64,000 nt of DNA from Paenibacillus sp. SYP-B4298 (lineage in GTDB: Bacteria; Bacillota; Bacilli; Paenibacillales; Paenibacillaceae), in the NCBI RefSeq assembly GCF_027627475.1, contig NZ_CP115484.1, positions 5,994,501-6,058,500 on the forward strand, in the 5' to 3' direction. Shown one piece after another: positions 1 through 23,655 of the stretch (positions within the stretch are counted from its first letter, which is position 1; every line of letters begins with the position of its first letter). The notes beneath the pieces were generated by a model. That model had not been told where the DNA came from. It did no database searches and saw only the letters and a list, made by a program, of their open reading frames with translations. The position numbers and the translations under genes are program-made.

Positions 1-525
1 GCGATGGTCAGAGCTGACCTGGATGCTTCTGGACAGCAGCTCATCGCTTACGTGAAGTGTAAACATGGAGAAGCTTCGCTAGATACGATCCGTCAGCATG
101 TGACACAGCTTCCCTCCTACATGCAGCCTTCCTTCTACGTCGTGATGGATCTTTTTCCACTTACGGCGGGAGGAAAGATTAATCGCGAGCTTCTTCCCAA
201 ACCCGATATGCTCCATACAGTGAGTACAACTCCGGGAACACCTGCGAATGAAACCGAGCACATCTTATCCCGGATCTGGTGCCAGCTCCTTCTCCGGGGG
301 GAGGTGGGAAGGACAGATGATTTCTTCCAGATCGGTGGTCATTCCTTACTTGCCACCCAGATGGTTTCGCTAGCTCGCAAGGCGTTTTCCAAATATATAC
401 CGATTCAAGCGGTATTTGAAGCCCCGACGATCATCGAGCTGGCAAGGTATATTGATAGCATTGAAGTGGAAACCAGCGCGTCCCTTCCGAAGATAACCAG
501 GCTCCCCAGGGGGACGAAAACCTGA
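1..525 (+). CDS. NRPS, C-terminal fragment (end of A domain + T domain), 5' end outside window
   Basis: This is the last 174 codons of an NRPS gene that begins upstream of the window. It shows the C-terminal subdomain of an adenylation domain, including the A10 motif GGKINRELLP with the catalytic Lys, then a complete thiolation domain with DDFFQIGGHSLLATQ, where Ser carries the phosphopantetheine arm. The protein ends right after the T domain without TE or E domain, so its chain must pass to a C domain in another protein. The next gene starts 30 bp downstream on the same strand with a C domain, which makes it the natural acceptor. The substrate code lies outside the window and cannot be read. 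Confidence 0.93.
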   Translation, partial: AMVRADLDASGQQLIAYVKCKHGEASLDTIRQHVTQLPSYMQPSFYVVMDLFPLTAGGKINRELLPKPDMLHTVSTTPGTPANETEHILSRIWCQLLLRGEVGRTDDFFQIGGHSLLATQMVSLARKAFSKYIPIQAVFEAPTIIELARYIDSIEVETSASLPKITRLPRGTKT

Positions 526-555: not shown

Positions 556-3500
556 TTGAGTACAACTATTAACAGCAGCCACTACTCGTTTCCGGCATCT
601 TTTGCCCAAAGACGGATATGGTTTGTACAGGAGACCCTGTCTGATCCCTCCGTGTATCATGTGCCGCTGCTGTTCAAGCTTTACGGATCTGTTCAGCTTG
701 CAATGCTGCAGCACGCCATCGACAAGCTGGTGGAGCGGCACGAATCCCTGCGCACGTATTTTGCGGTAGAAGGCCATGATATTGTCCAGGTCATTGTACC
801 CGAACTGGACAGTCCCATCAGCCATGTCCGTGTGTCGGAAGAAGCTGCCGTTCGCATCCAGGAACGCATCATGCAGGATATTCGAACTTCATTCTCATTG
901 GATCAGGCTCCGCTGTTCCGAATCGCACTGTACTCGTTGAATGAGCACGAACATTACTTCCTGATCAATATGCACCATATCATTACAGACGGTTGGTCCA
1001 GTTCCGTGTTCCTGCGGGAATTAAGCTTGATCTATTCTGCCGGGCTTCAAGGCAAGGAGGCTGCTTTGCCGGAATTGCCCATTCAGGTGGCAGATTTCTC
1101 CCAATGGCAAAGAGACAGCCTGCAAGGCGAGGAGCTGGAGAGGCAGATGCTCTTTTGGGAGAGACATCTGGAGGGGGAGCTGCCTGTCCTGGATTTGCCT
1201 GTTGATCCGTTGAGGCCGCCAGTGATCGACAATATAGGCGAGTCCTTCGCATTTCACATTCCATTGGAGCTCTCGGAACGATTTGCCCGCCTGTGCGGCC
1301 AGAGCTCGACGACATTATATATTGGGTTGCTAGCGATCTATCAGTTGCTGCTGGCTCGATATTCGGGTCAAGACGATATTATCATCGGTACGCCGGTTGC
1401 TAATCGACATTATAGCGAACTGGAGCATGTGATCGGAATGTTCGTCAATACGATGGCATTGCGCACACGTCTTCAGCACAATCCAACGTTTCGGGAGATG
1501 CTGCAGCAGCTCCGAGCCAGCGCACTCCAGGCCTACGAGCATCAGGACGTCCCCTTCGATATGCTCGTTGAACGGCTCGCCCCGGAGCGGAATCTGGGAC
1601 AAACCCCTATCTTTCAGGCCATGTTTTCGTTTCAGAATCATCCGAAGCTGGAGCTGGAGCTGCCTTACATCGACATTCAGCCTGTCGAGCTTGAGCTGGG
1701 TACGGCCAAGTTTGAGCTGTACCTGGATATTGCCCAGACGCAGGATGGCCTGTATGGCATATTTGAATATCAAAAGCAACTATACAGTCGCGAGCTGATC
1801 GAAAAGCTGTCTGCGCACTTCGTGAGCCTTATGGAGAGTGTTCTGAAGGATATAGAGCAGCGAGTGTGGCACATTCCTTTTATCAGCGGGCAAGAAATGC
1901 AATGGAACATAGAGCCGCCGCACCATCCAGAGCCAATCGAGGCTCTGAAGCAGCAATGGGCGTGCTCCCATCATCCTTTTGAACATTTCGCTTTGACCAG
2001 CCCGGATGCAATTGCCGTTCGCTGCAGCGATGAAGAGTTGACATACGCTGAACTCAATCGACGGGCTAATCGGATTGCATGGCGTTTGCGTGAGAAGGGG
2101 ATGGGCCCCGATACGTCCATAGGGCTGTGGCTCGCTCCCTCCGTCGACTTCATCACGGTCATGTTAGCCATATGGAAGGCAGGGGGCTGCTGCGTTGCAT
2201 TGAATCGCAATCACCCTGCACCATGGAACGCCTCGCTGATACAAAAAGCGAAAGTGTCGTGCATCGTGACGAACGAAGATAACCTGCGCCATGTTCCTCA
2301 GGGGGACATCGAGGTGCTCTGCATCGAGCGGCTGGATGTAGGCACAGCTCCTGCTGTCAATCCCGAGGTGACGATACGTGCCCATCACGGGGCATGTTTA
2401 CTCCGAGCATCGGACGAAGCCTGTCGTTTTCAGATGGTTACTGTGCCCCATTACAGACTTTTGCAGCTATGCGAATCAGCAGGCCAAATGTTTGGATTTG
2501 ATCACAATGACGCGTGGGCATGGCAGCATGCCGTGGACAGCGAGCTGGCTCTATGGGAAATAGGCGGAGCCCTGTTCTATGGAGGAACCGTCGTCATCGT
2601 ACCTGACTGGATCACGGATCAGCCCAAATATATGCATGAGCTTCTCCTCAAGGAGAAGGTCACGCGGCTTACATTGACCCAGGCAGCCTTCACGGCCTGG
2701 ATCAGGCTGGATGGGGCAGAAGCACAAGGCAAGCTGGGACTTCGTACTATTTTTATTAAAGGAAGAACGGTGTCCGTCCCCCCGATGGACGAATGGTTGG
2801 CTCGTCACACCAGGCAGCATCCGCAGCTCATTCAACTAAACAGTCTGAGCGATGTGGGAGGAGCATTCAGCTATCGTGTTATTCCGAGCAGCGGCAATGC
2901 ATACGGAAGAGCCGACAGAAGCATCGGGGCTCCACTGGCGGGACAGACCCTGTATATCCTTGATGCCAGCGGTCAGATCATGCCTACGGGTGTGGCAGGG
3001 ATCATGCATGTAAGCGAACAAGATTCTGACAATGCAAGAGCGTATCATGACAGGCAGGGCGATGAGCGCTGGACGTATCGCTCGCTCGATGGCGGAGCCG
3101 GCGAATGGCTGTACCGCACGGACGACATCTGCCGTTACTTGCCCAATGGAGCATTGGAACGGCTGCGCTGCCTGGGGAATCAGGTGGAACGGGGCGAGTA
3201 TATCGTCCAGTTGGAGGAGGTACGAGCAGCCTGTCTTCAACAATCGGCTATCCAGGAAGCGGCGATTCAGGTATGGAGGGACGAGCATGGCATTGCCTAT
3301 ATGACGGCTTACCTGGTAGCTGTGGCGGGGCGGACGGTTCCTGTACAACAGGTTCAGCATGCTATGCGGGATCAGTTGCCTGAATACATGATTCCAGAGA
3401 CGATGCTTTGGGTGGATCAGCTCCCTCGTCTGGCTAGCGGCGACATGGATTATGGACGTCTTCAGCGTCATAAGGATCATGCGGCCAGGCAGTCCGCGTA

Positions 3501-6500
3501 TGTAGCACCGGCTAACCGGATAGAGGAGGAGCTCGCTAGAATTTGGGAAGCTGTACTCGAAGCTCCTAGAATTGGTGTCGAGGATAATTACTTTGTATGC
3601 GGTGGAGATTCCATTCGTATGCTGTCGATCATAGCTTTGGCCAAGGAATCCGATCTGTTTTTCGGTATTATGGACCTGGTATCCCATCAAACGATCCGCC
3701 AGCTTGCCCCGCATGTTCGGACGAGCCAGGAGGCTGTCAAGGTGAGGGACGAGAAATTTGATCTGGTGCCTGAAGAGGATCGTGCCCGTCTGCCGGGAGG
3801 TATAGAGGACGCTTATCCGCTTGCCCAGCTCCAGAGGGGCATGCTGTTTCAGAGCGAGCTGCACCCGGAATCCAGACTGTATCATGACCTTCTGCAGTAT
3901 TCGATACGGGGGCCCTTCCGTAAGGAAGCATGGGATGCAGCCTTTAACGTATTACTCGACCGTCATCCGATGTTGCGTACATCGTTTGATTTGTCGAATT
4001 ACAGCCTTCCGCTGCAAATCGTGCACACCGCTGGGCAGGTGTCGATCCACTATGTCGATTTAACCGCTATACAGCCCGAGGTGCAGCCACACTACCTTCA
4101 GGAATGGGTAGATCGTGTTATGAACACGCCTTTTGACTGGAGTCAATCGCTGCTGCGCATCCATATTCTGCAACGCGCGGATGACTGGATTCAACTGATG
4201 CTGTCGTTTCATCATTCGCTGCTGGACGGCTGGAGCGTGCAGCTATTCATGGCAGAGCTATTCGAAACCGTCGATCGCTTGCTTCAAGATCAGACATTGA
4301 AGCAAGCTGCGCCCTTGCAATCGACGTTCAAGCAATATATCAGAGAAGAGCTGAATGCACTGCAGTCCCCGGAGCACAAGGCATACTGGCAGCAGCAACT
4401 GCACGGATTCTCCCGAACCAGGCTTCCTCAGTGGGAGCAGACCTCTGCACCTGCTCCGAATATGCACCTTGAGGAGGTAGAGATATCCCTGGCTCTATCG
4501 CGCGGGGTGCAGGCGCTGTCGAAGAGGACGCTAATTCCAATCAAGAGCTGGCTGCTGGCCGTTCATATGCACATCTTAAAATTGCTGACCAATCAGCGGG
4601 ACATCACGACGGGGGTACTGTTCCATGGTCGGCTCGAACAGATGGACGGCGACCGTGCGCTAGGTTTATTTCTCAACACCCTTCCCTTCCGTATGCAGCT
4701 CGGCAGATGGAGCTGGAATGCGCTAGCGGAGCAAGCGTGGGAAACGGAAAAGCAAATGCTCCAGTATCATAGGTATCCAATGGCCCAAATTCAGCAGGAT
4801 GCCGGAGGCGACAAGCTATTCGAGACGTTCTTTAACTTCACGCATTTCTATGTATCCGAACAGAAGCTGGATTCGTATGCAAAGCTGCAGATTGTTGAGG
4901 AGCCAGGGCACGCGGACAACAGCTTTCCGTTTGGAGCCGAGTTTTCGCTGGATGGAAAGACCGGTGAATTAAGGCTGGCGCTTCGGTGGGATCAATCGCA
5001 GTTCAGCAGCGAGCAGATGAGACGGGTTGCCGGATATTATCAAAGGGCGTTGCATGCGATCGTCCACCGTACAGATGAAGTCGCCGATGATGACTGCCTG
5101 TTATCCACCGAGGAGCTTCAGGAGCTGGAACGCTGGAATCAAACGTCCTGCGATTTTCCGCGGGTGCATCTCCTGCACAGACTGTTCGAGGAGCAGGTGG
5201 AGAGTACGCCTGACCAACTGGCTCTGGCGTATCGGGATCGGCGGTTAAGCTACCGAGATTGCAATGAGCAATCGAATCAGTTGGCCCATTATATGCTTAA
5301 GTATGGACTTGGGCCGGACGTGAAGGTAGGCGTATGTCTGGAGAGATCCATCGAGTTGGTGACCGGCCTGATGGGCATCTTGAAGGCGGGCGCAGCTTAC
5401 GTCCCGATTTCACCCCATCTTCCAGCACAGCTTGTGCATGAGCTCGTGCAGGATGCCGAGCCGGGGCTGATCGTGACAAGTGAGAACTGGGCTTCGCTCT
5501 TCGCAGGATACGAGGGAACCGTTCTATACATGGAGCGGATTCGAGACGAATTGGCGCTCGAGCCTGTCACGAACCCGGATGTCCCATGCCAGCCGGGACA
5601 CCTTGCCTATATGATCTATACTTCGGGCTCCACTGGGAAACCCAAGGGTGTCCTCATCGAGCATAGGGCGATTGCCAACCGCCTGCTCTGGATGCAGCGC
5701 GAATATCGCTTGACCGCAATGGATCGGGTGCTCCAAAAAACGCCGTTTACATTCGATGTCTCGGTGTGGGAATTTTTCTGGCCGTTGATGACTGGGGCCG
5801 GACTGGTCATGGCGGAGCCCGAAGGACACAAAGACCCGGAATATCTCATCAAGGTAATTCAGGAAGAACGGATTACAACGATTCATTTTGTGCCTTCGAT
5901 GCTTCATGCATTTTTATCTCAGCCGGGAGTCGGACAATGCACGACACTGACCAGGGTCATTTGCAGCGGAGAAGCGTTGCCGCCTGTGCTAACGCGATTA
6001 TTTTTCGACAAGCTCTCTTGTGAATTGCACAATCTGTACGGACCAACGGAGGCTGCAATTGATGTAACCAGTTGGCCATGCATAAAGGAGGAGATTAGCG
6101 TACCGATCGGTTATCCGATCGCTAATGTCTACATGCGGATACTCGATGAACAGAGGAGGCCGCTGCCAGTTGGTGTAGCTGGCGAGCTGTACATTGGAGG
6201 CCTATGCCTTGCCCGCGGCTATCATAACCGACCGGAGCTGGATGCGGAGAGGTTTATACCTGATTCGTTTAGTCACGACCCGAATGCACGCTTGTACAAA
6301 ACAGGCGATGAGGCCAGGTATCTTCCGAGCGGCGCCATCGAATACATAGGGCGCCTGGATCAGCAAGTGAAAATACGTGGTCATCGCATCGAGATTGGCG
6401 AGGTCGAAGCTAGGCTTTCAGAGCATCCTTTAATTGGGGAGTGTGCGGTGTATGCAGCCAAGGACAGCAATCCGCATCTGCAGCTTGTGGCGTGTATCGT

Positions 6501-7695
6501 CAAAGTAAAACCGGACGATCCGCTGACCTTGCAGGAACTGTTCAATTTCTCCAAAACGCGCATGCCAGAATATATGATCCCTGCCCGCTGGGTGTTCATG
6601 GATGAGATGCCATTAACGACGAGCGGGAAGATCGATCGGAAGGCTCTCCAGCAGCTCGATATGAACCACATGGAAGGGCGAGCTGACGCATACCAGCCGC
6701 CATGCAATCCGCGCGAGCGCCTGTTGGCGAGCATCTGGGAGCAGGTTCTTCACGTCACTGCCCCTAGTGTCAAGGATTCGTTCTTTCATCTGGGTGGCAA
6801 TTCATTGCTCGCTATTCAACTGATGGCCAGAGTGGAGCAGGAGTTTGCCCGAAAGATGCCGTTATCGCGTATTTTGGAGCACGATACGATCGAACGATTG
6901 GCAAGGCTGCTGAGTGATGACCCGGATGAGGAGCCCTTATCATCTTCGCTTGTCGCCTTGAACGCTTCGGGCGGCAGGGAACCGCTGTTCTGTATTCATC
7001 CTGTAGGCGGAAGTGTCGTATGCTACACCGCCTTGCCGCAGGCGCTTGGAGAGGACTGGCCTGTCTATGCTATTCAGGATGAGCGGATGAACGACAGGCG
7101 GGAGCCCCCCTTCTCATCGATCACCGAGCTGGCTCGCCAGTACATCGCGGAGATCAGACATGTACAGCCGAAGGGACCGTATTTCTTATTAGGCTGGTCG
7201 TTTGGCGGTATTGTGGCGCATGAGATGGCGTGCCAGCTAGAGCAGGCAGGAGAGACGATCGGGATACTGGCATTGCTGGATGCCAGACTGAGAATGCAGG
7301 ACGGCGGGGAGCAGGAGATTCGAGAGGAGGAATGGAAGGAGCACTTTCTACAGGACTTTACAAGCGTGCGCGAGCTAGGAGGGGACTCGGGAGCATCGGG
7401 AACCGGCTCGAGTCGGGAGGATGAGCTTCTTCAGCACTTGTATACTCTGTTCAAATCCAATTGGCGAGCGATGCGCGAGCATGTTCCCCAGTGGTTTGGC
7501 GGGACGGTAACGTGGTTTAGGGCCCAAGAGGAGGAAGGAGGGCTAAATGGGGAGAGAAGCTGGAACGACTATGCCAGGCAGGTCGATAGCATCATGCTGG
7601 ACGGTGACCACTACTCCATGATGAACGCTCTGAATGTCGGACGGGTGGCAGCCTATCTGAAATCTATTAATCATGAAGTGAAGGAGTCGGTCTAA
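556..7695 (+). CDS. Terminal NRPS, C-A*-T-C-A(Ser)-T-TE, first A domain degenerate
   Basis: A 2379-aa two-module NRPS that ends the assembly line. The TTG start at 556 follows AAAGGGG. Domains by rough residue: C1 10-440 (HHIITDG at about 140), A1 470-970, T1 985-1055 (CGGDS), C2 1083-1500 (HHSLLDG), A2 1536-2035, T2 2050-2120 (LGGNS), TE 2135-2375 (GWSFGG, DGDHYS). A1 has lost A3 (no TSGSTGxPKG), A5 (NSLSDVG in place of NxYGPTE), the Gly of A7 (YRTDD) and the A10 Lys (ASGDMD), so it should not make aminoacyl-AMP. T1 keeps its Ser. A2 is intact, and its hand-aligned code D-V-W-H-I-S-L-I-D-K is almost the serine signature. The module with dead A1 needs loading in trans, probably by the next three genes. 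TE releases the product, but linear versus cyclic cannot be told. Confidence 0.93.
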   Translation: MSTTINSSHYSFPASFAQRRIWFVQETLSDPSVYHVPLLFKLYGSVQLAMLQHAIDKLVERHESLRTYFAVEGHDIVQVIVPELDSPISHVRVSEEAAVRIQERIMQDIRTSFSLDQAPLFRIALYSLNEHEHYFLINMHHIITDGWSSSVFLRELSLIYSAGLQGKEAALPELPIQVADFSQWQRDSLQGEELERQMLFWERHLEGELPVLDLPVDPLRPPVIDNIGESFAFHIPLELSERFARLCGQSSTTLYIGLLAIYQLLLARYSGQDDIIIGTPVANRHYSELEHVIGMFVNTMALRTRLQHNPTFREMLQQLRASALQAYEHQDVPFDMLVERLAPERNLGQTPIFQAMFSFQNHPKLELELPYIDIQPVELELGTAKFELYLDIAQTQDGLYGIFEYQKQLYSRELIEKLSAHFVSLMESVLKDIEQRVWHIPFISGQEMQWNIEPPHHPEPIEALKQQWACSHHPFEHFALTSPDAIAVRCSDEELTYAELNRRANRIAWRLREKGMGPDTSIGLWLAPSVDFITVMLAIWKAGGCCVALNRNHPAPWNASLIQKAKVSCIVTNEDNLRHVPQGDIEVLCIERLDVGTAPAVNPEVTIRAHHGACLLRASDEACRFQMVTVPHYRLLQLCESAGQMFGFDHNDAWAWQHAVDSELALWEIGGALFYGGTVVIVPDWITDQPKYMHELLLKEKVTRLTLTQAAFTAWIRLDGAEAQGKLGLRTIFIKGRTVSVPPMDEWLARHTRQHPQLIQLNSLSDVGGAFSYRVIPSSGNAYGRADRSIGAPLAGQTLYILDASGQIMPTGVAGIMHVSEQDSDNARAYHDRQGDERWTYRSLDGGAGEWLYRTDDICRYLPNGALERLRCLGNQVERGEYIVQLEEVRAACLQQSAIQEAAIQVWRDEHGIAYMTAYLVAVAGRTVPVQQVQHAMRDQLPEYMIPETMLWVDQLPRLASGDMDYGRLQRHKDHAARQSAYVAPANRIEEELARIWEAVLEAPRIGVEDNYFVCGGDSIRMLSIIALAKESDLFFGIMDLVSHQTIRQLAPHVRTSQEAVKVRDEKFDLVPEEDRARLPGGIEDAYPLAQLQRGMLFQSELHPESRLYHDLLQYSIRGPFRKEAWDAAFNVLLDRHPMLRTSFDLSNYSLPLQIVHTAGQVSIHYVDLTAIQPEVQPHYLQEWVDRVMNTPFDWSQSLLRIHILQRADDWIQLMLSFHHSLLDGWSVQLFMAELFETVDRLLQDQTLKQAAPLQSTFKQYIREELNALQSPEHKAYWQQQLHGFSRTRLPQWEQTSAPAPNMHLEEVEISLALSRGVQALSKRTLIPIKSWLLAVHMHILKLLTNQRDITTGVLFHGRLEQMDGDRALGLFLNTLPFRMQLGRWSWNALAEQAWETEKQMLQYHRYPMAQIQQDAGGDKLFETFFNFTHFYVSEQKLDSYAKLQIVEEPGHADNSFPFGAEFSLDGKTGELRLALRWDQSQFSSEQMRRVAGYYQRALHAIVHRTDEVADDDCLLSTEELQELERWNQTSCDFPRVHLLHRLFEEQVESTPDQLALAYRDRRLSYRDCNEQSNQLAHYMLKYGLGPDVKVGVCLERSIELVTGLMGILKAGAAYVPISPHLPAQLVHELVQDAEPGLIVTSENWASLFAGYEGTVLYMERIRDELALEPVTNPDVPCQPGHLAYMIYTSGSTGKPKGVLIEHRAIANRLLWMQREYRLTAMDRVLQKTPFTFDVSVWEFFWPLMTGAGLVMAEPEGHKDPEYLIKVIQEERITTIHFVPSMLHAFLSQPGVGQCTTLTRVICSGEALPPVLTRLFFDKLSCELHNLYGPTEAAIDVTSWPCIKEEISVPIGYPIANVYMRILDEQRRPLPVGVAGELYIGGLCLARGYHNRPELDAERFIPDSFSHDPNARLYKTGDEARYLPSGAIEYIGRLDQQVKIRGHRIEIGEVEARLSEHPLIGECAVYAAKDSNPHLQLVACIVKVKPDDPLTLQELFNFSKTRMPEYMIPARWVFMDEMPLTTSGKIDRKALQQLDMNHMEGRADAYQPPCNPRERLLASIWEQVLHVTAPSVKDSFFHLGGNSLLAIQLMARVEQEFARKMPLSRILEHDTIERLARLLSDDPDEEPLSSSLVALNASGGREPLFCIHPVGGSVVCYTALPQALGEDWPVYAIQDERMNDRREPPFSSITELARQYIAEIRHVQPKGPYFLLGWSFGGIVAHEMACQLEQAGETIGILALLDARLRMQDGGEQEIREEEWKEHFLQDFTSVRELGGDSGASGTGSSREDELLQHLYTLFKSNWRAMREHVPQWFGGTVTWFRAQEEEGGLNGERSWNDYARQVDSIMLDGDHYSMMNALNVGRVAAYLKSINHEVKESV

Positions 7696-9758
7696 TGCTA
7701 GACCCATTACGATATAAGACGGTTAAAAATAGCGAAGGACACTATTCTGTCTGGCCCGCGGAAAAACCCAACGCCTTCGGATGGGAGAGTGCGGGTATTG
7801 AGGGAACGCTTGAGGAATGCCTGAAGGAGATTGCGGCCGTCTGGAAGGACGTGAGGGCAATGGGGAAGCGCAGTTCCGTCTCTGCTGCGGAGCCGGCGCC
7901 TACGTCCAACATCCCGGCGAGCCTGGAACCGTGGGCGCATGACCGATCCTGGAATGGGAGCGTCGTTCCTGTGCATCCTCCCGCCTGCATCCACCATCTG
8001 TTCGAACGCCATGCAAGGCTACATCCCGATCGCGTTGCCCTTACCTATGATTCGCAGCATATGACATACCGTGAGCTGGATGAAGCAGCCGAGGCGCTTG
8101 CGAACAGGCTCGCGCAGCTTCAGGTAGCTCCTGACAGCGTGGTTACGGTTCTGGTCGAGCGTTCTTTGGAGCTTGTCATATCGCTGCTGGCGATTCTGAA
8201 GGCTGGAGGATGCTACCTGTCATTGGAGACGACGGTTCCGCAGGCACGGCTGGATTTCATTCTGGAGGATGCTTCACCGTGTCTCGTCATCACACAACGC
8301 TGCTTCAGCGAGCGCTTCGAGAATCATTCGCTCCCTGTGCTGCTGCTCGATGAAGACAAACAGACTTTTGCGGCGGCTCCTCAGCGGAGGCGGGTAGAGG
8401 CGATGCCGGAGAACTTGATATATATCAGCTACACCTCAGGCTCGACAGGTACGCCGAAGGGCGTATGTGTACCGCATCGGGCGGTTGCTCGTCTGGTTGA
8501 TAATACCAAGGACTTCTCGTTTACGCCGGAGGATGTATTTTTGCTCATTTCACCGGTTGCCTTTGACGCCTCGACGCTCGAGATCTGGGCGCCTCTTACG
8601 AATGGCGGTCGGTTAGTCATCTATAATTGCGGGACGCTTCGTCCAGATACACTGTCTGAGACCATCCAGTCGGAAGGGATAACGACGGTATGGCTCACGG
8701 CAGGGCTATTTCAATTGATGGTGAACTCCTATCTGGATGCATTTAAGGGGGTTAAGCATGTGTTGGCAGGTGGCGATATTATATCCCCTGCACATCTTGA
8801 GCGCCTGCTCACCGTTCATCCCCATCTGACATTCACTAACGGATACGGCCCGACCGAAAATACGACGTTTTCGACCTGCTGGACGACCACGACGATGACC
8901 ACTCATCCTACTGTTCCGATCGGTTCGCCCATCAACGGAACGTGGGCGATGATCTGCGATGGCGATCACAATCCGGTGCTCCCGGGGCAGGAGGGAGAAC
9001 TGTACGTTGCGGGAGCGGGGTTGGCCAGAGGTTACCTCAACAACCCGACAGAAACCGCAAGCCGATTCGTGCCGAACCCATGGAGCGACACGCCCGGCGC
9101 GCGGATGTTTAGGACGGGAGACCTTGTTCGCTGGCTGGAAGACGGAAGGATGGAGTTTATCGGTCGTTCCGACAGGCAGATTAAAATTCAAGGCTATCGG
9201 GTAGAGCCGGATGAGATTGAAGCCGTGATTGTCAAGCATGCGGACATTCAGACTGCCGTTGTTACGACCCAGGAGGACAGCTTCGGCAATAAACGTCTGC
9301 TTGCCTATGTCATAACCACAGGCTCCGTGGATGAGGAGCAGGAGACGGTTGCGCGCTTGCATGCCGAGCTGCTGCGACACTTGCCCCCTTACATGGTTCC
9401 ATGGGCCATCATGCCCTTGCAGGAGATGCCATTGACGCCCAATGGGAAGGTGGATCGGAAGCAATTGCCTGCGGCGACCCGTGCGCCTCGCAGATTGGGA
9501 ACTCCTTTTACTGCACCGCGTAATGCGATGGAATCGAAAATTTGCGCATTGTGGGGGGAGAAATTGGCGATCGAGCCCATCGGCATCCATGACAACTTCT
9601 TCTCGCTTGGCGGCGACTCCCTTATTTTGTCTGAGTTGATCGTGACCATGGAGGATGTGACTGAAACGGTTATATCGGCCCGCTCCATTTATCTGAAGCC
9701 TACGGTGGCGGAAATTGCGGCAATGATCGAGGAAAGCAGACAAATTGTACAAGGTTAA
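7695..9758 (+). CDS. MbtH-A-T fusion protein, predicted valine-activating carrier
   Basis: A 687-aa stand-alone loading protein. Residues 1-55 form an MbtH-like domain (GHYSVWPAEKPNAFGW, then LKEIAAVWKDVR), normally a separate activator of A domains. An A domain follows (about 95-590: YTSGSTGTPKG, NGYGPTE, FRTGD, NGKVDR), then a T domain (FFSLGGDSLILSE). The hand-aligned ten-residue code is D-A-L-W-L-G-G-T-F-K, a classic Val signature. The start overlaps the stop of the preceding NRPS (TAATG) after GAAGGAG, implying translational coupling. There is no C or TE domain, so it cannot extend a chain alone. NikP1 of nikkomycin biosynthesis has the same MbtH-A-T layout and presents His to a P450; the P450 following here suggests the same logic with Val. 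Confidence 0.93.
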   Translation: MLDPLRYKTVKNSEGHYSVWPAEKPNAFGWESAGIEGTLEECLKEIAAVWKDVRAMGKRSSVSAAEPAPTSNIPASLEPWAHDRSWNGSVVPVHPPACIHHLFERHARLHPDRVALTYDSQHMTYRELDEAAEALANRLAQLQVAPDSVVTVLVERSLELVISLLAILKAGGCYLSLETTVPQARLDFILEDASPCLVITQRCFSERFENHSLPVLLLDEDKQTFAAAPQRRRVEAMPENLIYISYTSGSTGTPKGVCVPHRAVARLVDNTKDFSFTPEDVFLLISPVAFDASTLEIWAPLTNGGRLVIYNCGTLRPDTLSETIQSEGITTVWLTAGLFQLMVNSYLDAFKGVKHVLAGGDIISPAHLERLLTVHPHLTFTNGYGPTENTTFSTCWTTTTMTTHPTVPIGSPINGTWAMICDGDHNPVLPGQEGELYVAGAGLARGYLNNPTETASRFVPNPWSDTPGARMFRTGDLVRWLEDGRMEFIGRSDRQIKIQGYRVEPDEIEAVIVKHADIQTAVVTTQEDSFGNKRLLAYVITTGSVDEEQETVARLHAELLRHLPPYMVPWAIMPLQEMPLTPNGKVDRKQLPAATRAPRRLGTPFTAPRNAMESKICALWGEKLAIEPIGIHDNFFSLGGDSLILSELIVTMEDVTETVISARSIYLKPTVAEIAAMIEESRQIVQG

Positions 9759-9774
9759 CTTAAGGAGGAGACAA

Positions 9775-11025
9775 ATGCCAACGAATGCCATGAAATCATC
9801 TCATATCAATTTAGCGGAAGTGGATTTGCTGGACCCTCAGTTATACAGCCATGGCGAGCCTTACGCCGTATGGGATGTCATGCGCAGAGATGCGCCTGTT
9901 CATTGGCAGAAGGTTAGCGAGGAGCTGGGGTTCTGGTCGGTCACCAGATATAAGGATGCCGTCAAGGTGTTGAAGGACTATAACACATTCACCTCCGAGC
10001 AGGGAAGCCTGCTTAATCTGCTCGGTATGAAGGACCCGGCGGGCGGGAAACAGATGGCGGTCACAGACCCGCCGCGGCATACCCAGATTCGCCGCCCGCT
10101 TCAGCGCGGCTTCCATAACAATTCGATCGACAAGCATGAGGAGCAATTGCGTGAAGCGATTCGCACCTTGGTAGCTCCTTGTCTGGAGCCCGGCGGTGTT
10201 GATTTTGCTCAGGCGATGTTTGAGATGTCCATAGCGGTGAGCGGGTGCATTATGCAATTGCCTGAGGATGATTGGCCGCTGCTGACCCGGCTTACGATGA
10301 TGGCGATTGCTCCTGATGATGCAGAGTACATGCTGCCTGAGGGGAGTGAAGCGACCCTGCAGCGGGCGCATCGCGAGCTGTTCGGCTACTTCATGGATAT
10401 GGTGGAGCAGCGGCGCCGTTCTCCAGGGCAAGATTTGATCAGCATTCTGATGAATGTAGAAGTGGATGGAGCCCGGATGGATATGGGGACTGTGATTTCC
10501 AATTGCTACAGCATTTTACTTGGAGCGACGGTTACGACGCCGCATGCTGCCAGCTTGTCGTTCCTGGAGCTGGTCAGGAAGGACTTGTACCGTGAATTTG
10601 CAGCACACCCGGAATGCATGGACAGCGGGATCGCAGAGGTGTTCCGCTGGTCGTCTCCGGCGAGTCATTTCATGAGACATGCAACCCGCGATACGGAGAT
10701 CAACGGGACACCAATCAAGCAAGGCGACGCAGTCGTGGTGTGGCTCGGGTCAGCCAATCGCGATGAGGAGGTCTTCGCCGACCCCTATACGTTCGACATT
10801 CGGCGAACCCCCAATCCCCATATTGCGTTTGGCAGCGGCTGTCATCATTGCATCGGTCACACAACGGCGAAGCAGACGATGACTATGCTGTATGAGGAGC
10901 TGTTCGCGAATTACGAGGGATTCGAAATCATCGGTCCCGTCGAATATCTGGGCTCCAACTTTATTAGCGGCATCAAACATATGCCTGTTCGCGGGTATGC
11001 ACGAAAATTGCAAGGGGTGGAGTAA
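9775..11025 (+). CDS. Cytochrome P450, predicted beta-hydroxylase of a carrier-bound amino acid
   Basis: A 416-aa P450. The ATG at 9775 follows AAGGAGGAG. Visible landmarks are the K-helix ExxR (EVFR), the heme loop FGSGCHHCIG with the Cys ligand, and an I-helix segment LLGATVTTPHAA that lacks the usual acidic residue of (A/G)GxD/ET, so proton delivery may rely on other groups. It lies 16 bp after the MbtH-A-T gene and 1 bp before the thioesterase-like gene. Known P450s beside free-standing A-T proteins (NikQ, NovI) beta-hydroxylate the aminoacyl-S-T intermediate. With a Val code next door the inferred product is beta-hydroxyvalyl-S-T. The family call is firm; the substrate is inference. Confidence 0.93.
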   Translation: MPTNAMKSSHINLAEVDLLDPQLYSHGEPYAVWDVMRRDAPVHWQKVSEELGFWSVTRYKDAVKVLKDYNTFTSEQGSLLNLLGMKDPAGGKQMAVTDPPRHTQIRRPLQRGFHNNSIDKHEEQLREAIRTLVAPCLEPGGVDFAQAMFEMSIAVSGCIMQLPEDDWPLLTRLTMMAIAPDDAEYMLPEGSEATLQRAHRELFGYFMDMVEQRRRSPGQDLISILMNVEVDGARMDMGTVISNCYSILLGATVTTPHAASLSFLELVRKDLYREFAAHPECMDSGIAEVFRWSSPASHFMRHATRDTEINGTPIKQGDAVVVWLGSANRDEEVFADPYTFDIRRTPNPHIAFGSGCHHCIGHTTAKQTMTMLYEELFANYEGFEIIGPVEYLGSNFISGIKHMPVRGYARKLQGVE

Positions 11026-11026
11026 A

Positions 11027-11782
11027 GTGGAATACGTAATTGAAGGAACGGAAGTAAGTGACAATGCCTGGCTTCTCAGAGAACCCTCTCCATTTGCCAA
11101 GGCGCGTTTGTTTTGCATTCCCTACTCCGGGTGCGGTGCGAGCATGTACCGCCACTGGCCCGAATATATCGGCAAGATCGAGGTGTGCCCGATCCAGCCG
11201 CCCGGTCGCGAGAACAGGTTCCATGAACCGACCTATACCTCGTATGAGCAGCTTGCCGAGAATCTTAATGAAGCCCTGCTGCCGTATATGGATCGGCCCT
11301 TTGCATTCTTTGGTCATTGCGGCTCGGCGCTGCCGAGCTACGAGGCCTCCGTCCAGTTGATGCAAAATGGCGGGCCTTTGCCTTCACACTTATTTATCTC
11401 CTCTCAGGTTGCTCCGCACGAAGGACCCTATGGCAGGTTCCTGGAGCTGGACGATCAGGGGCTTGCTGCAGAGATTGAGCTGTTGATTAACAAGATGGGC
11501 GGGAAGCCCTTGCCAGACATTATTGAACTGAACACAGGAATTATGCGCTCCGATCTTGAAGCGAATCGCCGTTATACACGGAGCGGGCCACAAGCCCTCG
11601 ATTTCCCGCTCACGGCCATCGGTTGGAATGGAGACCAAGAGGTAGACCCGTCCTTATTAGCCGGATGGAGCGAATATGGACAAGCCTCCTTCAAGGTGCT
11701 GGATGGGGATCATCATCAATTTTTGCAGGCTCCGATGGAACTGCTCGGCACGATTGCGGAAGCGATGCGGCCCCATATCTAA
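11027..11782 (+). CDS. Type II thioesterase-like alpha/beta hydrolase with Cys nucleophile, candidate aminoacyltransferase
   Basis: A 251-aa alpha/beta hydrolase of the external-thioesterase (GrsT) type. The GTG start at 11027 has AAGGGGTGG upstream and sits one base after the P450 stop. The nucleophile elbow reads FFGHCGSA: Cys98 (TGC codon) replaces the usual Ser of GHSMG, and the last Gly is Ser. The rest looks normal, with GWNGDQEV before the Asp region and DGDHHQFL carrying the catalytic His. Editing thioesterases normally use Ser. SyrC and CmaE, which shuttle amino acids between carrier proteins, use Cys. Its place between a stand-alone A-T/P450 pair and an NRPS lacking a working A domain fits such a shuttle. 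Hydrolytic release of a free hydroxy-amino acid is the alternative. Confidence 0.88.
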   Translation: MEYVIEGTEVSDNAWLLREPSPFAKARLFCIPYSGCGASMYRHWPEYIGKIEVCPIQPPGRENRFHEPTYTSYEQLAENLNEALLPYMDRPFAFFGHCGSALPSYEASVQLMQNGGPLPSHLFISSQVAPHEGPYGRFLELDDQGLAAEIELLINKMGGKPLPDIIELNTGIMRSDLEANRRYTRSGPQALDFPLTAIGWNGDQEVDPSLLAGWSEYGQASFKVLDGDHHQFLQAPMELLGTIAEAMRPHI

Positions 11783-11803
11783 CAGTTGAACGGAGGAGAT
11801 CAT

Positions 11804-12853
11804 ATGCAGGCTGACGCCAAAATTGAACTTCGCAGCGATACGTTTACGTTGCCTACTGCCGCAATGCTGGAAGCCATGATGCAGGCCGAGCTTGGAGATG
11901 ATGTGTATGGGGAAGATCCAACCGTGAACAGGCTGGAGGCCAAGGCAGCGGACATGCTCGGGAAGGAAGCCGCCATTTTTATGCCTAGCGGAACGATGGC
12001 TAATCTGGCCGCCATCCTGGCCCACTGTCCGCGCGGGTCCAAGGTGCTCGTCGGCGACGAGACGGATATCTACATCTATGAAGCGGCGGGAGCGAGTGTA
12101 TGCGGAGGAATTATGTACGAGCCCATCAGAACCCATGCAGACGGCAGGCTTGATCTGGAGCACTTGCACAGCGCTATTCCGCGTAATCCGGCAGATCCGC
12201 AATTTGCCCTGCCGGGGCTGCTCTGTCTGGAGAACCCCCATAATCGCATGGGCGGTCGGATACTCCCGCTGTCTTACTTGGAGGAGATTCGGGGGATAGC
12301 CAACGAGCACAGGATTCCTGTGCATATGGATGGCGCCCGTCTATGGAATGCTTCCGTCGCCATGGGCGTACCGGCAGCCGTTATCGCCGATTATGCCGAC
12401 TCGCTCCAGTTCTGTCTCTCCAAGGGCTTGTCTGCCCCTATAGGCTCCATGGTGGTAGGCAGCGAGGCGTTCATTCACAAGGTCTACCGAATTCGAAAAA
12501 TGCTCGGAGGGGGGATGCGACAGGCGGGAGTCATCGCAGCCGCGGGACTCGTTGCTCTAGACCACATGATAGAGCGATTGGGGGAGGATCATTCGAATGC
12601 CAAGCGGCTGGCAGAGGGACTGTCAGCCATACCAGGGATTTCATGCGATCCTGGGACGGTCGAGACCAATATTGTGTTTTTTCGAGTTACTGATCCCCGG
12701 TTCACATGGGAGAGCTTCGTACAGAAGCTAGGTCAACAGCACGTATATGTCGATGAGCTTGGACATGGCCGCATTCGTGCAGTGACCCACGCTGGAGTTA
12801 GCTCCCGACAGATCGAGCAGGCTCTGCATATCATTCAGGACACGCTGGTATGA
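11804..12853 (+). CDS. Threonine-aldolase-family PLP enzyme
   Basis: A 349-aa fold-type I PLP enzyme close in length and motifs to low-specificity L-threonine aldolases: RSDTFTLPT near the N terminus, GDDVYGEDPTVNRLE, the cofactor-ring region SGTMANL, HMDGARLWNAS, and the Schiff-base Lys207 in CLSKGLSAPIGS. Start ATG 11804 follows GGAGGAG. It is 21 bp after the Cys-type thioesterase and 19 bp before the next NRPS, so it is part of the operon. The family makes or cleaves beta-hydroxy-alpha-amino acids (glycine plus aldehyde). In this cluster it may supply glycine or a beta-hydroxy amino acid. It is unlikely to act on beta-hydroxyvaline itself, whose retro-aldol partner would be a ketone. Substrate not readable. 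Confidence 0.9.
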   Translation: MQADAKIELRSDTFTLPTAAMLEAMMQAELGDDVYGEDPTVNRLEAKAADMLGKEAAIFMPSGTMANLAAILAHCPRGSKVLVGDETDIYIYEAAGASVCGGIMYEPIRTHADGRLDLEHLHSAIPRNPADPQFALPGLLCLENPHNRMGGRILPLSYLEEIRGIANEHRIPVHMDGARLWNASVAMGVPAAVIADYADSLQFCLSKGLSAPIGSMVVGSEAFIHKVYRIRKMLGGGMRQAGVIAAAGLVALDHMIERLGEDHSNAKRLAEGLSAIPGISCDPGTVETNIVFFRVTDPRFTWESFVQKLGQQHVYVDELGHGRIRAVTHAGVSSRQIEQALHIIQDTLV

Positions 12854-12872
12854 ACGGAAAGGAGTGGATGGC

Positions 12873-15800
12873 TTGAATTTTCCGAATCTGTGCCTTCATG
12901 AGCTCTTCGAGCAGCAGGTTGAACGGACTCCGCAGCAGGTTGCGGTTATCATGAACGATTCACGCCTCACATATGAGGAGCTGCACAAGCAGTCGAGCCA
13001 GCTTGGACATTACCTCATCCATAAGGGCGTAGTGCCTGATACACCGGTAGGGGTTTGCATGAAGCGTTCACCCGCCATGATTGTGGCACTGCTTGGGATA
13101 TTAAAGGCAGGCGGCGCTTACGTTCCCCTTGACCCCGAAGCGCCATATGCCAGGAACCACCACATGCTGACCGAAGCAGGAGCACGCTATTGTATTGCTG
13201 ATCCAGAGGGGATGGCGGACTCTTCCTGTATTGCCGAGGAGATGCTTGTATATCCGGCCTTGTACGGTGAGCTTGAGAAGCTGTCTGCCTGTTCGCCGCG
13301 CACCGAGGTACAGCCCGAGCATCTCGTTTCTATCTATTATACATCAGGCTCTACTGGCAAGCCCAAGGGGGTTATGAACAGGCATCAAGGCTGGGTGACG
13401 GCTCTATTGTCCCTGCAGAGTGCTCTGCGCCTGCAACCCGGTGAGACCGTGCTACATAAAACGACACTGACCTTCGACGATGCGGCTATGGAGATTTTTT
13501 GGCCGCTTCTTACCGGCGGCACTGTTGCGCTTCTCGAACCGGGGCTGCACCAGGACCCTGAAGCGATCGTTGAGGCGGTCATTGCGTATGACGTCTCCTT
13601 CCTTGTGCTCGTCTCCAGTGTTCTGGGCAGGGTGATGGATGTTGTGAAGCCGCAGCAGATCCAGCAGATGACGCATTTAAGAGGCTGCTTCGGAGGCGGA
13701 GAGGCACTGCCTGTCCAGATGGGGAGGCGGTACATGCAGCTTGGCATGCCAGGGGATTTATACAATCTATGGGGGGCGACGGAATTATCGATCGGAACGA
13801 CCTTGCATCTCTGTACGCCGAAGGACTTTGTGGGGGAAGGGCAGATATCCATTGGAACTCCCTTGCCTAACAGCCGAGTGTATATTTTGGATCACAATCT
13901 TCGCAAGGTAGCTGTGGGTGTTGCCGGCGATGTGTACGTCGCGGGCAACGGTCTGTCAAGAGGTTACCTCCATGACCCTGAGCGCACAAGCGCCGTGTTC
14001 CTCGATGATCCATTTGTGAAGGGGGAACGAATGTATCGAACGGGGGATCAAGCCTATGCTCAAGAGGATGGGAGCCTGTACTTCGTAGGGCGATCTGATC
14101 ATCAGGTCAAAATTCGGGGCATCCGCGTTGAGCTTGGCGAGATCGAGGCCGCGTTATTGGCCGATGCCGATGTTAGAGAAGCTGTTGTGATGCTTCGCGA
14201 GGATATTCCCGATCATCAGCGCCTGACGGCCTACGTTGTCCTATACCCCGGCCGATCCAGGTCGGCGGGGCAAATCAGGGAGTCACTAAAGATCAGACTG
14301 CCAGCCTTCATGATTCCGCACTTTATGATGGTGATGGAGGAGCTTCCGCTCAACCCCAATGGCAAGATAGATCGTCATGCTTTACCGATCCCCTCTCCCG
14401 ACAGCGCCGATTCTCCTATGATTACCGAACCTCAAACGCTGATGGAGGCATTTCTGGCAAGAACGTTCTCGGATATATTGCGACTTGAGGAAGTGGGACG
14501 AACAGACGATTTTTTTGAGATAGGGGGGGACTCTATCTCTGCCTCCAGGGTCATCAGCACTCTTCGTTCATATACAGAGCTGACTTTGCCGCTTGCACTG
14601 ATCTTCGAGCATCGAAACGTCAAGGATTTGGCGCAGCATCTGGAGGAAAGGGGATACCGGGGCGAGGCCCTGATTGAGCAGGCTATATTTCCATCCGGCA
14701 GGTCGGACGCGCAGGCGATGTCTTTTGCCCAGGAGCGCATGTGGTTTCTACAGCAGGTCGATCCCCTAGACCCGGTGTACAATGAGCCATTAGCCTTTCG
14801 AATCGAAGGCAAGCTCGATACTAGCGCGCTGCAAGCCGCTCTGAACGAATTGGTTCAGCGGCACGAGGTGCTCAGGACGACGTTTGCGATTGAAAATGAC
14901 CAGCCTGTACCGATCATTGCAGGGGAGGGCGAGCTTCAACTGGAGATCATCCAAGTGGACGCGAGTATCGAGGGGCATTTGGAATCGCTGCTACAGCACA
15001 GATTAACGGAGGAAGCGCGGAAGCCCTTCGATCTGGAGAAGGGGCCACTTATTCGAATGGTTTTATTGAAGCTCGGCGAGGAGAGCAGCGTTCTCTTTAT
15101 CAACATGCATCATATCATTACAGACGCATGGTCGAATGTGATGTTCCTGAATGAACTCAATATTCTATACACAGCTTACCTCGATAACAAGCCTAGTCCT
15201 CTGCGGGATCTGCCGTTCCAATATAGCGATTATGCTGCATGGCATAAGGAATGGGTTCAGAATCATGTCCTTCGGACGCAGCTTGATTTCTGGAAGAACG
15301 AGCTTTCGGGGGAACTGCCGGTTCTGCAATTGCCGACAGATGAGCCGAGGCTGCCTGTACAAACCTTTGAAGGGGATAAAGTCTACTTTTCATTGTCCAA
15401 GCAGTGGATGTCGCGTATTCAGGCGCTGAGCAGGCAGACAGAAGCCTCTGCATATATGATTTTACAGGCGGTCTTCAGCATCATGCTCCATCGTTATTCC
15501 GGTCAAAAGGATATGATCATCGGCTCCCCCCTAGCTAATAGGAACCAGCGAGAATTCGAGCAAATGCTGGGATTTTTCGTAAATACGGTAGCCATTCGCA
15601 GCCACTTCAAGGGTGAAGACGGTTTTCGTGTTTATTTGCAGCAAGTCAAGGAACGATGCCTTAACATCTACGAGCATCAGGATGTCCCGTTCGAACTGTT
15701 GGTCAGGGAGCTGCAGCCCGAACGAAATCCAGCGTACTCCCCCATCGTTCAGGTCATGTTCGCTTATCAAAACAAACTGGAGGAAATGCTGGAGCTTGGC

Positions 15801-17964: not shown

Positions 17965-18996
17965 TTGATTTGTACAAATATAATCGAGTCGATAGGAAAT
18001 ACGCCTTTGGTGCAGTTAAACCCGATTCAGGGCAAGGGGAACGTGTTTGCCAAGATGGAATTAATGAACCCGTTCGGGATGAAGGATCGTGTAGCCAAGC
18101 AGATTATTCTGGAAGCGAAGCGTACTGGAGAATTGAAAGAGGGCGCCCCCATTATCGAGAGCTCGTCTGGCACGATGGCTTGCGGCGTTGCGATGGTAGG
18201 AGCGTGTCTGGGGCATCAGGTTCATATCGTTACCGATCCGCGGATCGACTCGATTACGCTCGCAAAATTGACTTCGCTAGGCTGCAACATTGAGATCGTA
18301 GAGCGAATGGGCACGAACGGATGGCAGAGCGCACGTCTGCAACGGCTTCACGAGATGATGGATAGGCTCCCGGGGGCGTATTGGCCCAGACAATATGAAA
18401 ATCCTAACAACCCCGTTGCGTACAGCGCACTTGCCGAGGAGGTCATGAGCGGTCTTGGACACGTAGACTTCCTCATCGCCGCAGTTGGAAGCGGGGGGTC
18501 TATGACAGGAACGGCTCGGGCTCTCAAGCGATATAATCCGAACCTCAAGGTGATTGCGGTCGATTGCACAGGAAGCGTAATCTTCGGACAGCCTGACCGT
18601 TCCGGCCGATTGCAGGGCGGGCTGGGCAATTCGATTATCGCTCCGAACGTAGATCATTCGCTTGTTGACGAGGTGCACTGGCTGAATGACGAAGAAGCAT
18701 TTGCCGCGACGCTCGCCCTGGCGCGAGAACAGCAGATCTTTGCCGGCAACTCATCCGGCTCAGTCTACGTTGTAGCCAGATGGCTCCAATCCTGTGTTCC
18801 TCAACATACGAATATATTGGCCATCTTTCCAGATCGCGGCGACCGGTATGTAGATACCATCTATAGCCACCAGTATAGAGTGGTCAAGCAGATCGACGGC
18901 TTGGTCCTGCCGGAGGAGCCGCAGTTGGTTCCTTATCGGACCGTCGTCCATTCGTGGTCCTACGCAAGGCTAGAGGGAGTGGCTCAACGTGTCTAA
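17965..18996 (+). CDS. Cysteine-synthase-like PLP enzyme, candidate diaminopropionate-type synthase
   Basis: A 343-aa fold-type II PLP enzyme. The TTG start at 17965 follows AGAGGGTGG. The Schiff-base Lys40 lies in NPFGMKDR, and ESSSGTMACG and the phosphate-binding GSGGSMTGTARAL loop are present. It differs from housekeeping CysK (NPSGSVKDR, TSGNTG) and looks more like SbnA/VioB-type enzymes that use activated serine with an amino donor to make 2,3-diaminopropionate precursors. Its stop overlaps the ATP-grasp start by 8 bp, so the two are co-translated. Secondary-metabolite clusters often pair such enzymes with ATP-grasp ligases. No SbnB-like dehydrogenase partner is visible in the window, so diaminopropionate formation is a hypothesis; cysteine or another beta-substituted alanine is possible. 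Confidence 0.88.
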   Translation: MICTNIIESIGNTPLVQLNPIQGKGNVFAKMELMNPFGMKDRVAKQIILEAKRTGELKEGAPIIESSSGTMACGVAMVGACLGHQVHIVTDPRIDSITLAKLTSLGCNIEIVERMGTNGWQSARLQRLHEMMDRLPGAYWPRQYENPNNPVAYSALAEEVMSGLGHVDFLIAAVGSGGSMTGTARALKRYNPNLKVIAVDCTGSVIFGQPDRSGRLQGGLGNSIIAPNVDHSLVDEVHWLNDEEAFAATLALAREQQIFAGNSSGSVYVVARWLQSCVPQHTNILAIFPDRGDRYVDTIYSHQYRVVKQIDGLVLPEEPQLVPYRTVVHSWSYARLEGVAQRV

Positions 18997-21538: not shown

Positions 21539-22645
21539 ATGCGTGAAGAATGGGACCGTAAGGACTGGAAGGCGCAATTCCGCAATCGAATTCAGACCGT
21601 CGAGGCTTTAAAGGAATACATTCACTTAAGCCCAGAAGAGGAACAAGTGATAAAAAAAAGTGAGGGGCTTTACCGTTGGGCCATTACTCCTTATTATGCA
21701 TCGCTAATGGATCCGACAGACCCGAATTGTCCAATACGCTTGCAATCTTTGCCTACAGCCGACGAATTCATACCCAATCTGTATTCCGATGTCGATCCGG
21801 TAGGGGATATGAAATATCGGGTTACCAATCGCATCATTCACAAATACCCGGATCGGGTTGTGATGCTGGTAACAGAGCAGTGCTCCGTCTATTGCAGGCA
21901 TTGCACACGCAAATATCATACGACGGATGTGAACGGAACCTACTTTGAAAGGCGGGAAGGGGAATCCTTTGAGGAGGATATCCGCTATATAGCGGCGCAT
22001 CCCGAGATCCGTGACGTTCTATTAACCGGTGGCGATCCGCTAACCTATTCGGATAATCGGCTTGAGGATGTTATCTCCAAGCTCAGAAGCATTCCGCACG
22101 TTGAGATTATTCGGATCGGCACAAGATACCCGGTATTGCTCCCGCAGCGCATTACGAAAGAATTTTGCGAGATGCTGGAGAAGTATCATCCCATCTGGCT
22201 CAATACACATTTTAACCATCCCAAAGAAATTACAGAGGAATCTGCACGGGCGTGCGACCTGCTATTGAAGCATGGTATCCCCGTACAGAATCAATCGGTG
22301 CTTCTCAAAGGCATCAATGACGATTTGGAGACGATGAAGGCGTTGCTTCATGGTCTGTTGAAAATCCGGGTGCGCCCTTATTATCTCTACCATTGCGATA
22401 ATGTAACAGGCGTCTCTCATTTTATGACTTCACTGGAGACAGGAATTGAATTAATGCAAGGACTTGTCGGACATACGACCGGATTTGCTATTCCGACCTA
22501 TGTGCTGACAACAATCAACGGAAAAATTCCAGTTTCAAGCGATACGATCGTCGATTACTCCGAGAAAGGATTGACTCTTAAAAGCTACGAGGGCAAAGAA
22601 ACGTTCATTCCGTATCTGCGGAAGCAGGAGGTTCTGCATTCCTGA
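21539..22645 (+). CDS. KamA-family radical-SAM 2,3-aminomutase, substrate uncertain
   Basis: A 368-aa radical-SAM/PLP enzyme related to lysine 2,3-aminomutase. The iron-sulfur motif is CSVYCRHC at about residues 115-122. TGGDPLTYSD and YYLYHCDNVTGVSHF follow; the latter keeps the Asp equivalent to the substrate-binding Asp of KamA. The segment that in lysine enzymes reads D-A-P-G-G-G-G-K-I-P-V is here LTTINGKIPV: the PLP Lys is kept but the Asp and the glycine run are lost. The protein also lacks the longer C-terminal tail of clostridial KamA (416 aa). Start ATG 21539 follows GAGGAGG. In the cluster it would make a beta-amino acid, perhaps beta-lysine, beta-arginine or another. Altered pocket residues argue against assuming lysine. 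Confidence 0.88.
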   Translation: MREEWDRKDWKAQFRNRIQTVEALKEYIHLSPEEEQVIKKSEGLYRWAITPYYASLMDPTDPNCPIRLQSLPTADEFIPNLYSDVDPVGDMKYRVTNRIIHKYPDRVVMLVTEQCSVYCRHCTRKYHTTDVNGTYFERREGESFEEDIRYIAAHPEIRDVLLTGGDPLTYSDNRLEDVISKLRSIPHVEIIRIGTRYPVLLPQRITKEFCEMLEKYHPIWLNTHFNHPKEITEESARACDLLLKHGIPVQNQSVLLKGINDDLETMKALLHGLLKIRVRPYYLYHCDNVTGVSHFMTSLETGIELMQGLVGHTTGFAIPTYVLTTINGKIPVSSDTIVDYSEKGLTLKSYEGKETFIPYLRKQEVLHS

Positions 22646-22726
22646 GGACAGCTGTTGAGACAAGTATTTTGCAAATGAATGGATGAAGTTATTAAAATAT
22701 GATATATTTTGGGGAGATGGTATAAT

Positions 22727-23566: not shown

Positions 23567-23655
23567 GGTAAGAGGTTGTTTTTGTAGAGGATATTCCTTA
23601 CATTCCGTTATAGGCTCTGCACACAAATACTAATAGGGTATTGGGGGTATCTTTG

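Follow-up and report, generated by a model that had tools for sequence, protein, structure and literature searches.

A valine-type adenylation-carrier protein, a cytochrome P450 and a cysteine thioesterase as a candidate trans-loading system for a degenerate synthetase module in Paenibacillus

How does a carrier domain obtain its amino acid when the adenylation domain beside it has decayed? The question is raised by a nonribosomal peptide synthetase (NRPS) encoded in a stretch of 64,000 nucleotides from Paenibacillus sp. SYP-B4298 (the window; G000:C1:5994501-6058500 of a 6.26-Mb single-contig genome). The gene at 556..7695 (plus strand) encodes, according to Pfam matches, motifs and orthologues, an acceptor and terminal synthetase of the organization C1-A*-T1-C2-A2(Ser)-T2-TE, where C, A, T and TE stand for condensation, adenylation, carrier and thioesterase domains and A* for the degenerate adenylation domain. 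Together with the genes of a stand-alone MbtH-A-T protein, a cytochrome P450 and a thioesterase-like protein with an active-site cysteine (the Cys protein), it lies in a plus-strand run. The motifs of A* and A2 were read from an alignment with 29 other adenylation domains. In A* (1963..3510, plus strand), the frame is still open, but the core of A3 is lost (GACLLRASDEACRFQMVTV), SE replaces FD in A4 (Asp235 to Glu), A5 reads QLNSLSD and A10 reads ASGDMDY (Lys517 to Asp). A2 (5146..6660, plus strand) has all its adenylation motifs intact and holds the only AMP-binding_C match of the protein; its code DVWHISLIDK we take to be Ser-type, the code positions themselves being likewise assumed. The adjacent carrier T1 (3538..3741, plus strand) keeps the serine of its GGDSI motif, and both condensation domains keep HHxxxDG. 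The original prediction, which described an intact T1 serine beside an A domain stripped of A3, A5 and A10, is thus borne out, and the A4 aspartate is gone too. Going by its motifs, A* should not be able to charge T1. Since A* is degenerate beside intact T1, C1 and C2, T1 would need a residue from elsewhere.

A candidate donor is encoded immediately downstream. The stand-alone MbtH-A-T (7695..9758, plus strand) has intact adenylation motifs and the code DALWLGGTFK, which we call Val-type because it is near DALWMGGTFK, given as valine-specific for another system (PMC3943440; here and below, statements on cited papers refer to the portions of their text that were at hand). Its fused MbtH domain (7710-7832; 37 bits against a Pfam cut-off of 27) may also serve other A domains of the line in trans, since the genome gives no further MbtH match at E 0.001. 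The P450 gene follows (9775..11025, plus strand, with an ATG behind AAGGAGG; the longest open reading frame starts at 9745), and its product is presumed to be a beta-hydroxylase of carrier-bound valine. Among its structural matches 4L0E/4PWV come third at 246 bits, below two CYP125MRCA chains at 277 bits. The 4PWV entry is a holo peptidyl carrier protein (PCP) bound to a P450, and this closeness, as judged by score rather than by a tree, is in keeping with an oxidation on the carrier. The third gene (11027..11782, plus strand, GTG start at 11027) encodes a stand-alone protein of the type-II-thioesterase family (PF00975, 81.2 bits against a cut-off of 26.4), whose best match among solved structures is RifR (107 bits). 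Its nucleophile motif is GHCGS instead of the GHSxG serine motif of hydrolytic type-II thioesterases, and Cys98, Asp203 and His229 make up its triad, for which we presume the role of an aminoacyl shuttle. In this Cys nucleophile with Asp and His it is like SyrC, CmaE and CysB, a likeness drawn from descriptions rather than from sequences; SyrC and CmaE reportedly use a Cys nucleophile. The Val-code MbtH-A-T, the P450 behind it and the exchange of Ser for Cys, at residue 98 when counted from the GTG, are all present as originally predicted.

We therefore consider it probable, to judge from the sequences, that valine is loaded on the stand-alone A-T, oxidised there, passed by the Cys protein to T1 and joined to serine. 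By its code, the A domain of MbtH-A-T would activate L-Val and load its own T domain. The P450 would then oxidise the valine on this donor carrier, with 3-hydroxyvaline as the likeliest product and dehydrovaline or another oxidation as alternatives. Cys98 would take up the residue as an acyl-enzyme thioester and deliver it to T1 of C1-A*-T1, where C1 would add the upstream peptide, before C2 joins serine and the TE domain releases the product. A transfer is the economical reading, since T1 is not expected to be charged by A* and there is no C domain for the stand-alone A-T to work with; the Cys protein is its presumed agent because the Cys triad is conserved. This chain of events had been proposed in outline by the original prediction, and it fits both the gene anatomy and the comparisons below, while its catalytic steps, the position and kind of the oxidation and the direction of transfer are read from sequence.

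Orthologous clusters suggest that the arrangement of A*, A-T, P450 and Cys protein is more than chance. Of the 392 genomes of the order, 89 have a match to the Cys protein at E 1e-20, and the top four matches outside its own genome have 86, 83, 74 and 50% identity, followed by 39% for the next one. The orthologue genomes are G247, G274 (Paenibacillus popilliae ATCC 14706), G340 (P. nuruki TI45-13ar) and G378 (Fontibacillus panacisegetis). The gene order described by the original prediction was found in the first three, which share the same 13 genes from an argininosuccinate-lyase-like gene to an arginine 2,3-aminomutase gene and retain the Val code (DA(F/L)W(I/L)GGTFK), the dead A* and the Cys. 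By sequence, a degenerate A* accompanies intact T1, C1 and C2 in all four clusters, the A10 lysine being replaced by Glu in G247 and G274 and by Leu in G340, with part of A5 retained in G274. A* has few gaps and shares 61, 54 and 38% identity with its counterparts in G247, G274 and G340, as compared with 76, 75 and 61% for A2. The ratio of nonsynonymous to synonymous substitution rates (dN/dS; dS of 1.4-1.5 in these pairs, G340 being saturated) is 0.18 for A* against G247 and 0.21 against G274, versus 0.10 and 0.13 for A2, so that A* appears to be relaxed yet constrained; the values of the terminal TE domain (0.20 and 0.17) are near those of A*.

Two further clusters differ in their surroundings. 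In Fontibacillus (G378), only an A-T without MbtH, the P450 and the Cys protein are found, next to a different NRPS gene. Thermoflavimicrobium daqui (L036) has a homologous cluster (48% identity for NRPS_C, 52% for NRPS_A, 47% for NRPS_B and 77% for the arginine aminomutase) with a different gene order, in which the Val-code A-T, the P450 and the Cys protein are present. Its A* is more mildly affected, with YRSDSMGKPKG in A3, YMYGLTE in A5 and SSGEVDL in A10 (Lys517 to Glu). Comparison of this domain, the A* of Paenibacillaceae and C-T modules suggests possible stages of loss.

To which extent do the three genes form a unit of their own? A scan of species genomes with an alignment of Cys proteins gave 39 loci, four in Bacillota (L034, L035, L036 and L050) and 35 with actinomycete names. 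Cys98, Asp203 and His229 are present in all 41 sequences (39 loci, window and G247), within a GHC motif in 40 of them and GQC in L065. In a tree of 106 sequences, comprising these 41 Cys proteins and 65 control thioesterases and leaving aside the further thioesterases of the cassette loci, the Cys clade has a support of 0.999, and the sole control inside it, L107, is the L063 locus's own protein. Among 66 thioesterases from 60 control loci, 63 carry Ser, two carry Cys (one of them L107) and one was unread. Of the 39 loci, 34 have a P450 at most 700 nt from the Cys gene, 32 have a related A domain at most 4.2 kb away, and all have a T domain at most 2.7 kb away. All three are near in 29 loci, or 28 when L056, whose A domain belongs to the main-line synthetase, is set aside; a stand-alone A-T and a P450 gene stand directly upstream of the Cys gene in 28/39. 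With L061 and L063 added, 30 loci have a stand-alone A-T, and 22 of these 30 A domains carry the Val code DA(F/L/M)W(L/I/V)GGTFK, variants occurring in L041, L042, L044, L046, L049, L051, L061 and L063. Four actinomycete loci (L054, L060, L066 and L069) combine a T domain, a P450 and a Cys thioesterase with an upstream A-T of another code and two extra P450s; in L054 and L060 there is a second Cys thioesterase, with the motif GHCGG.

The position of the P450 gene also bears on the timing of oxidation. The P450 could act after the transfer, on T1-bound valine or on the peptide, the shuttle then moving plain valine, and P450s of the skyllamycin type are indeed said to act on main-line carriers. 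We regard this as unlikely, since the gene stands between those of the A-T and the Cys protein in 28/39 loci, whatever the main line, and since Fontibacillus has it with A-T and Cys protein in a different cluster. The MbtH fusion is sporadic, because only L034, L035 and L063 have it among the 39 loci. The original prediction counted the fused MbtH as part of an undescribed combination; MbtH-A-T is also found in Micromonospora sp. ALFpr18c (L063). In the nikkomycin pathway, NikP1, NikQ and NikP2 reportedly form an A-T with MbtH help, a P450 and a releasing thioesterase, NikP1 being an MbtH-A-T fusion; for this fusion the open-access literature searched gave no support.

The stand-alone A domain might instead charge T1 itself, leaving the Cys protein to edit or to act otherwise. 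A stand-alone A-T complements an inactive A domain in ramoplanin and enduracidin biosynthesis (review PMC8949500), and a trans-acting A domain is described for capreomycin. Such direct loading would make the A-T's own T domain needless, although its serine is kept in 5/5 clusters, and the conserved Cys triad and the adjacency of the genes point to a committed third enzyme; we thus hold it to be very improbable here.

If the Cys protein passes the residue on, acceptor modules would be expected nearby. The 39 cassette loci and 60 control loci around other thioesterases, the latter hand-picked among the matches listed from the same genomes and from Paenibacillales, were scanned with domain models made for this analysis; exclusion of L087, L103, L104, L107 and L112 left 55 controls. 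A C..T module was called orphan if its A domain was missing, reduced to a remnant or dead, and counts were made within 10 kb over loci with at least one C..T module. Orphan modules are present in 19/31 cassette loci versus 2/25 control loci (Fisher p 6e-5) or, by module, make up 22/49 versus 2/46 (Fisher p 3e-6). The two control loci with such a module are L075 and L108, the module of the latter being at the edge of its stretch. Wider flanks were taken for seven loci, five of which show an orphan module: L036 has a dead A*, L037 a dead A, L047 an A domain in fragments (judged by eye), L049 a C-T module, and L054, which has no C..T within 10 kb, has C-T modules on extension. In L063 and Fontibacillus (G378), extension revealed free-standing T domains only. 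The dead A domains of L039 and L057 contain an inserted methyltransferase. A* as a needed docking platform was also considered, an idea weakened by the C-T acceptors without any A domain. Luzopeptin and korkormicin, which reportedly contain N-methyl-3-hydroxyvaline, were weighed as chemical reference compounds for L037-L048 and similar loci, in which a dead A domain comes with a methyltransferase, and set aside, the residue being unconfirmed in the portions of the literature at hand.

Several points weigh against a transfer of oxidised valine to T1. All its enzyme steps are sequence-based, and the P450 scores higher with CYP125MRCA and also matches CYP125/126. An A domain is missing from the neighbourhood in seven loci (L054, L057, L059, L060, L066, L068 and L069), and a P450 directly upstream is missing in five (L057, L061, L063, L068 and L071). 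Orphan modules are absent within 10 kb in 12/31 loci and lie on the opposite strand in L055, L064 and L068, without which the count is 16/31 (p 5e-4). Kin loci inflate the counts, which become 12/18, 11/16, 8/11 and 4/5 clusters at 80, 70, 65 and 60% thioesterase identity when the cassette loci only are dereplicated and the controls kept whole. The classification rule was fixed with the cassette loci already in view, and flanks were widened for four of the 12 negatives, while the other eight (L041, L042, L044, L046, L048, L051, L060 and L071) and the controls were covered at 10 kb only. Furthermore, Cys is not diagnostic, since LgnA, a type-II thioesterase of the Ser type, was shown to be a transferase (PMC8748450). 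As a hypothesis, trans-loading of T1 is well supported by comparison.

Besides, A-T/P450/TE trios are known in which the thioesterase is held to free the hydroxy-amino acid. Qui18/Qui15/Qui14 of echinomycin and TioK/TioI/TioQ of thiocoraline share with the window an A-T with MbtH help, beta-hydroxylation by a P450 on the carrier and a type-II thioesterase, but differ in the part ascribed to the latter, release of the free hydroxy-amino acid, although release by Qui14 itself is not studied in the consulted parts of those papers (PMC3578932, PMC4052310, PMC9962454). Likewise, PlyQ, PlyR and PlyS, each essential by disruption, together with PlyX, resemble the window in their adjoining PCP, P450 and TE genes for a beta-hydroxylated aliphatic amino acid, whereas hydrolysis and reactivation are proposed for these polyoxypeptin building blocks (PMC3943440; PlyS is set beside the Cys clade by description). 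The Cys protein could similarly hydrolyse hydroxyvaline off the A-T, for use of the free amino acid elsewhere or for reloading. In favour of such a release, the window, G247, G274 and G340 have an adjoining gene of the GntG/threonine-aldolase family, whose product could in principle use free beta-hydroxy amino acids; against it, no such gene was found in the 40 kb fetched of the T. daqui cluster. Moreover, Val-type codes are missing from the other A domains of the line, reloading would require motifs that A* has lost, and orphan carriers accompany the Cys clade, all of which makes release quite unlikely in our estimate.

Transfer to T1, the reading we prefer, has its closest parallel in cystobactamid biosynthesis, where Asn bound to CysH is hydroxylated by CysJ and carried by CysB to module 3 of CysK (PMC7966384). 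The A domain of this module is without the A10 lysine, and the transfer was shown with Asn by protein mass spectrometry (PMC7966384), so that delivery to a dead-A module is known to work in this system. A stand-alone A-T, beta-hydroxylation on the carrier, a shuttle, an inactive acceptor A domain and an MbtH-type protein in the cluster are common to both systems; cystobactamid differs by Asn, an alpha-ketoglutarate-dependent oxygenase, an extra AMDH domain and a separate MbtH (CysA). The isoelectric points of the carriers (donor 4.4-5.1, acceptor 4.8-5.5, the acceptor being higher in 4/4 clusters) differ in the same direction as in cystobactamid, a weak signal that is unused as evidence. CysB is itself described as similar to SyrC and CmaE (PMC7966384). 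SyrB1/SyrB2/SyrC/SyrE likewise tailor a residue on an A-T and have a shuttle that takes it to a module incapable of self-loading, whereas they use a halogenase, Thr and an acceptor entirely without an A domain (PMC8949500). In legonindolizidine biosynthesis (LgnA/LgnB/LgnD), a type-II thioesterase also moves an aminoacyl group from a stand-alone A-T onto a C-T that lacks an A domain, but with a Ser nucleophile, with Thr and with no oxygenase in the step (PMC8748450). A SyrC-like route has also been invoked for a stand-alone A-T in a lipopeptide paper (PMC10609185).

The combination had been put forward as undescribed, which goes too far: in cystobactamid (PMC7966384) and in albicidin (PMC8949500) a dead A domain is served by a stand-alone A-T, and the principle of trans-loading such a module is already known. 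What is new is that Val-type A-T, P450 and Cys-TE recur together as a cassette in two phyla and are tied to orphan carriers. We found no description of this form in the consulted portions of the open-access literature; separate searches met neither beta-hydroxyvaline nor an inactive adenylation domain by name among the open-access matches listed. We tentatively extend this to a wider proposal, to which we give somewhat less than an even chance. The cassette would be a mobile three-gene module of Bacillota and Actinomycetota supplying oxidised valine to foreign assembly lines, thereby freeing the resident A domain from selection and leading through C-A (T. daqui, mildly affected) and C-A* to C-T stages. 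The methyltransferase cases would keep A* only as the frame of the insert, and the Cys thioesterases would represent a yet unnamed aminoacyl-transferase clade in its own right. Genome-mining programs, which infer each residue from the A domain of its module, fail when this domain is dead or missing; as a rule, the closest orphan carrier would be predicted to receive oxidised valine where a Val-code A-T lies next to a P450 and a GHC-type thioesterase. The Cys clade also offers many natural donor/acceptor pairs for tests of carrier recognition, and the graded series of A* suggests a path by which assembly lines exchange a loading domain.

The remaining genes give the context of the cluster. The 3' end of an upstream two-module NRPS (2175 aa, starting about 6 kb before the window) occupies 1..525 (plus strand). 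The gene of the GntG/threonine-aldolase-family enzyme, dependent on pyridoxal phosphate (11786..12853, plus strand), lies inside the range covered by the original prediction, where it is unmentioned. An NRPS of A-T-C-A-T organization (NRPS_C; 12864..17912, plus strand) is presumed to be the first synthetase and is without an N-terminal C domain. If NRPS_C starts the line, the assembly order NRPS_C, NRPS_A, NRPS_B would give a hexapeptide ending in (oxidised Val)-Ser. An arginine 2,3-aminomutase gene (21539-22645) is above its NCBIfam cut-off and an SbnA-like synthase gene (17965-18996) below its own, while 6-8 kb before the window there are genes whose sequences resemble those of argininosuccinate lyase and GHMP kinase. 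Beta-arginine and 2,3-diaminopropionate may thus be constituents of the product; the three-gene route resembles that of alanosine. A PhyH-type dioxygenase gene (22709-23566) is present in the window and G247 and was not found in the stretches fetched from G274 and G340, which may set the congeners apart. At the cluster end, the gene of a FusB-family-like EF-G-binding protein (23641-24291) scores 71 bits, far under the curated cut-off of 375; no homologue was found in the fetched parts of G247 and G340, and one is present in the G274 and T. daqui clusters. This gene may serve in self-protection, which would hint at translation as the target of the product.

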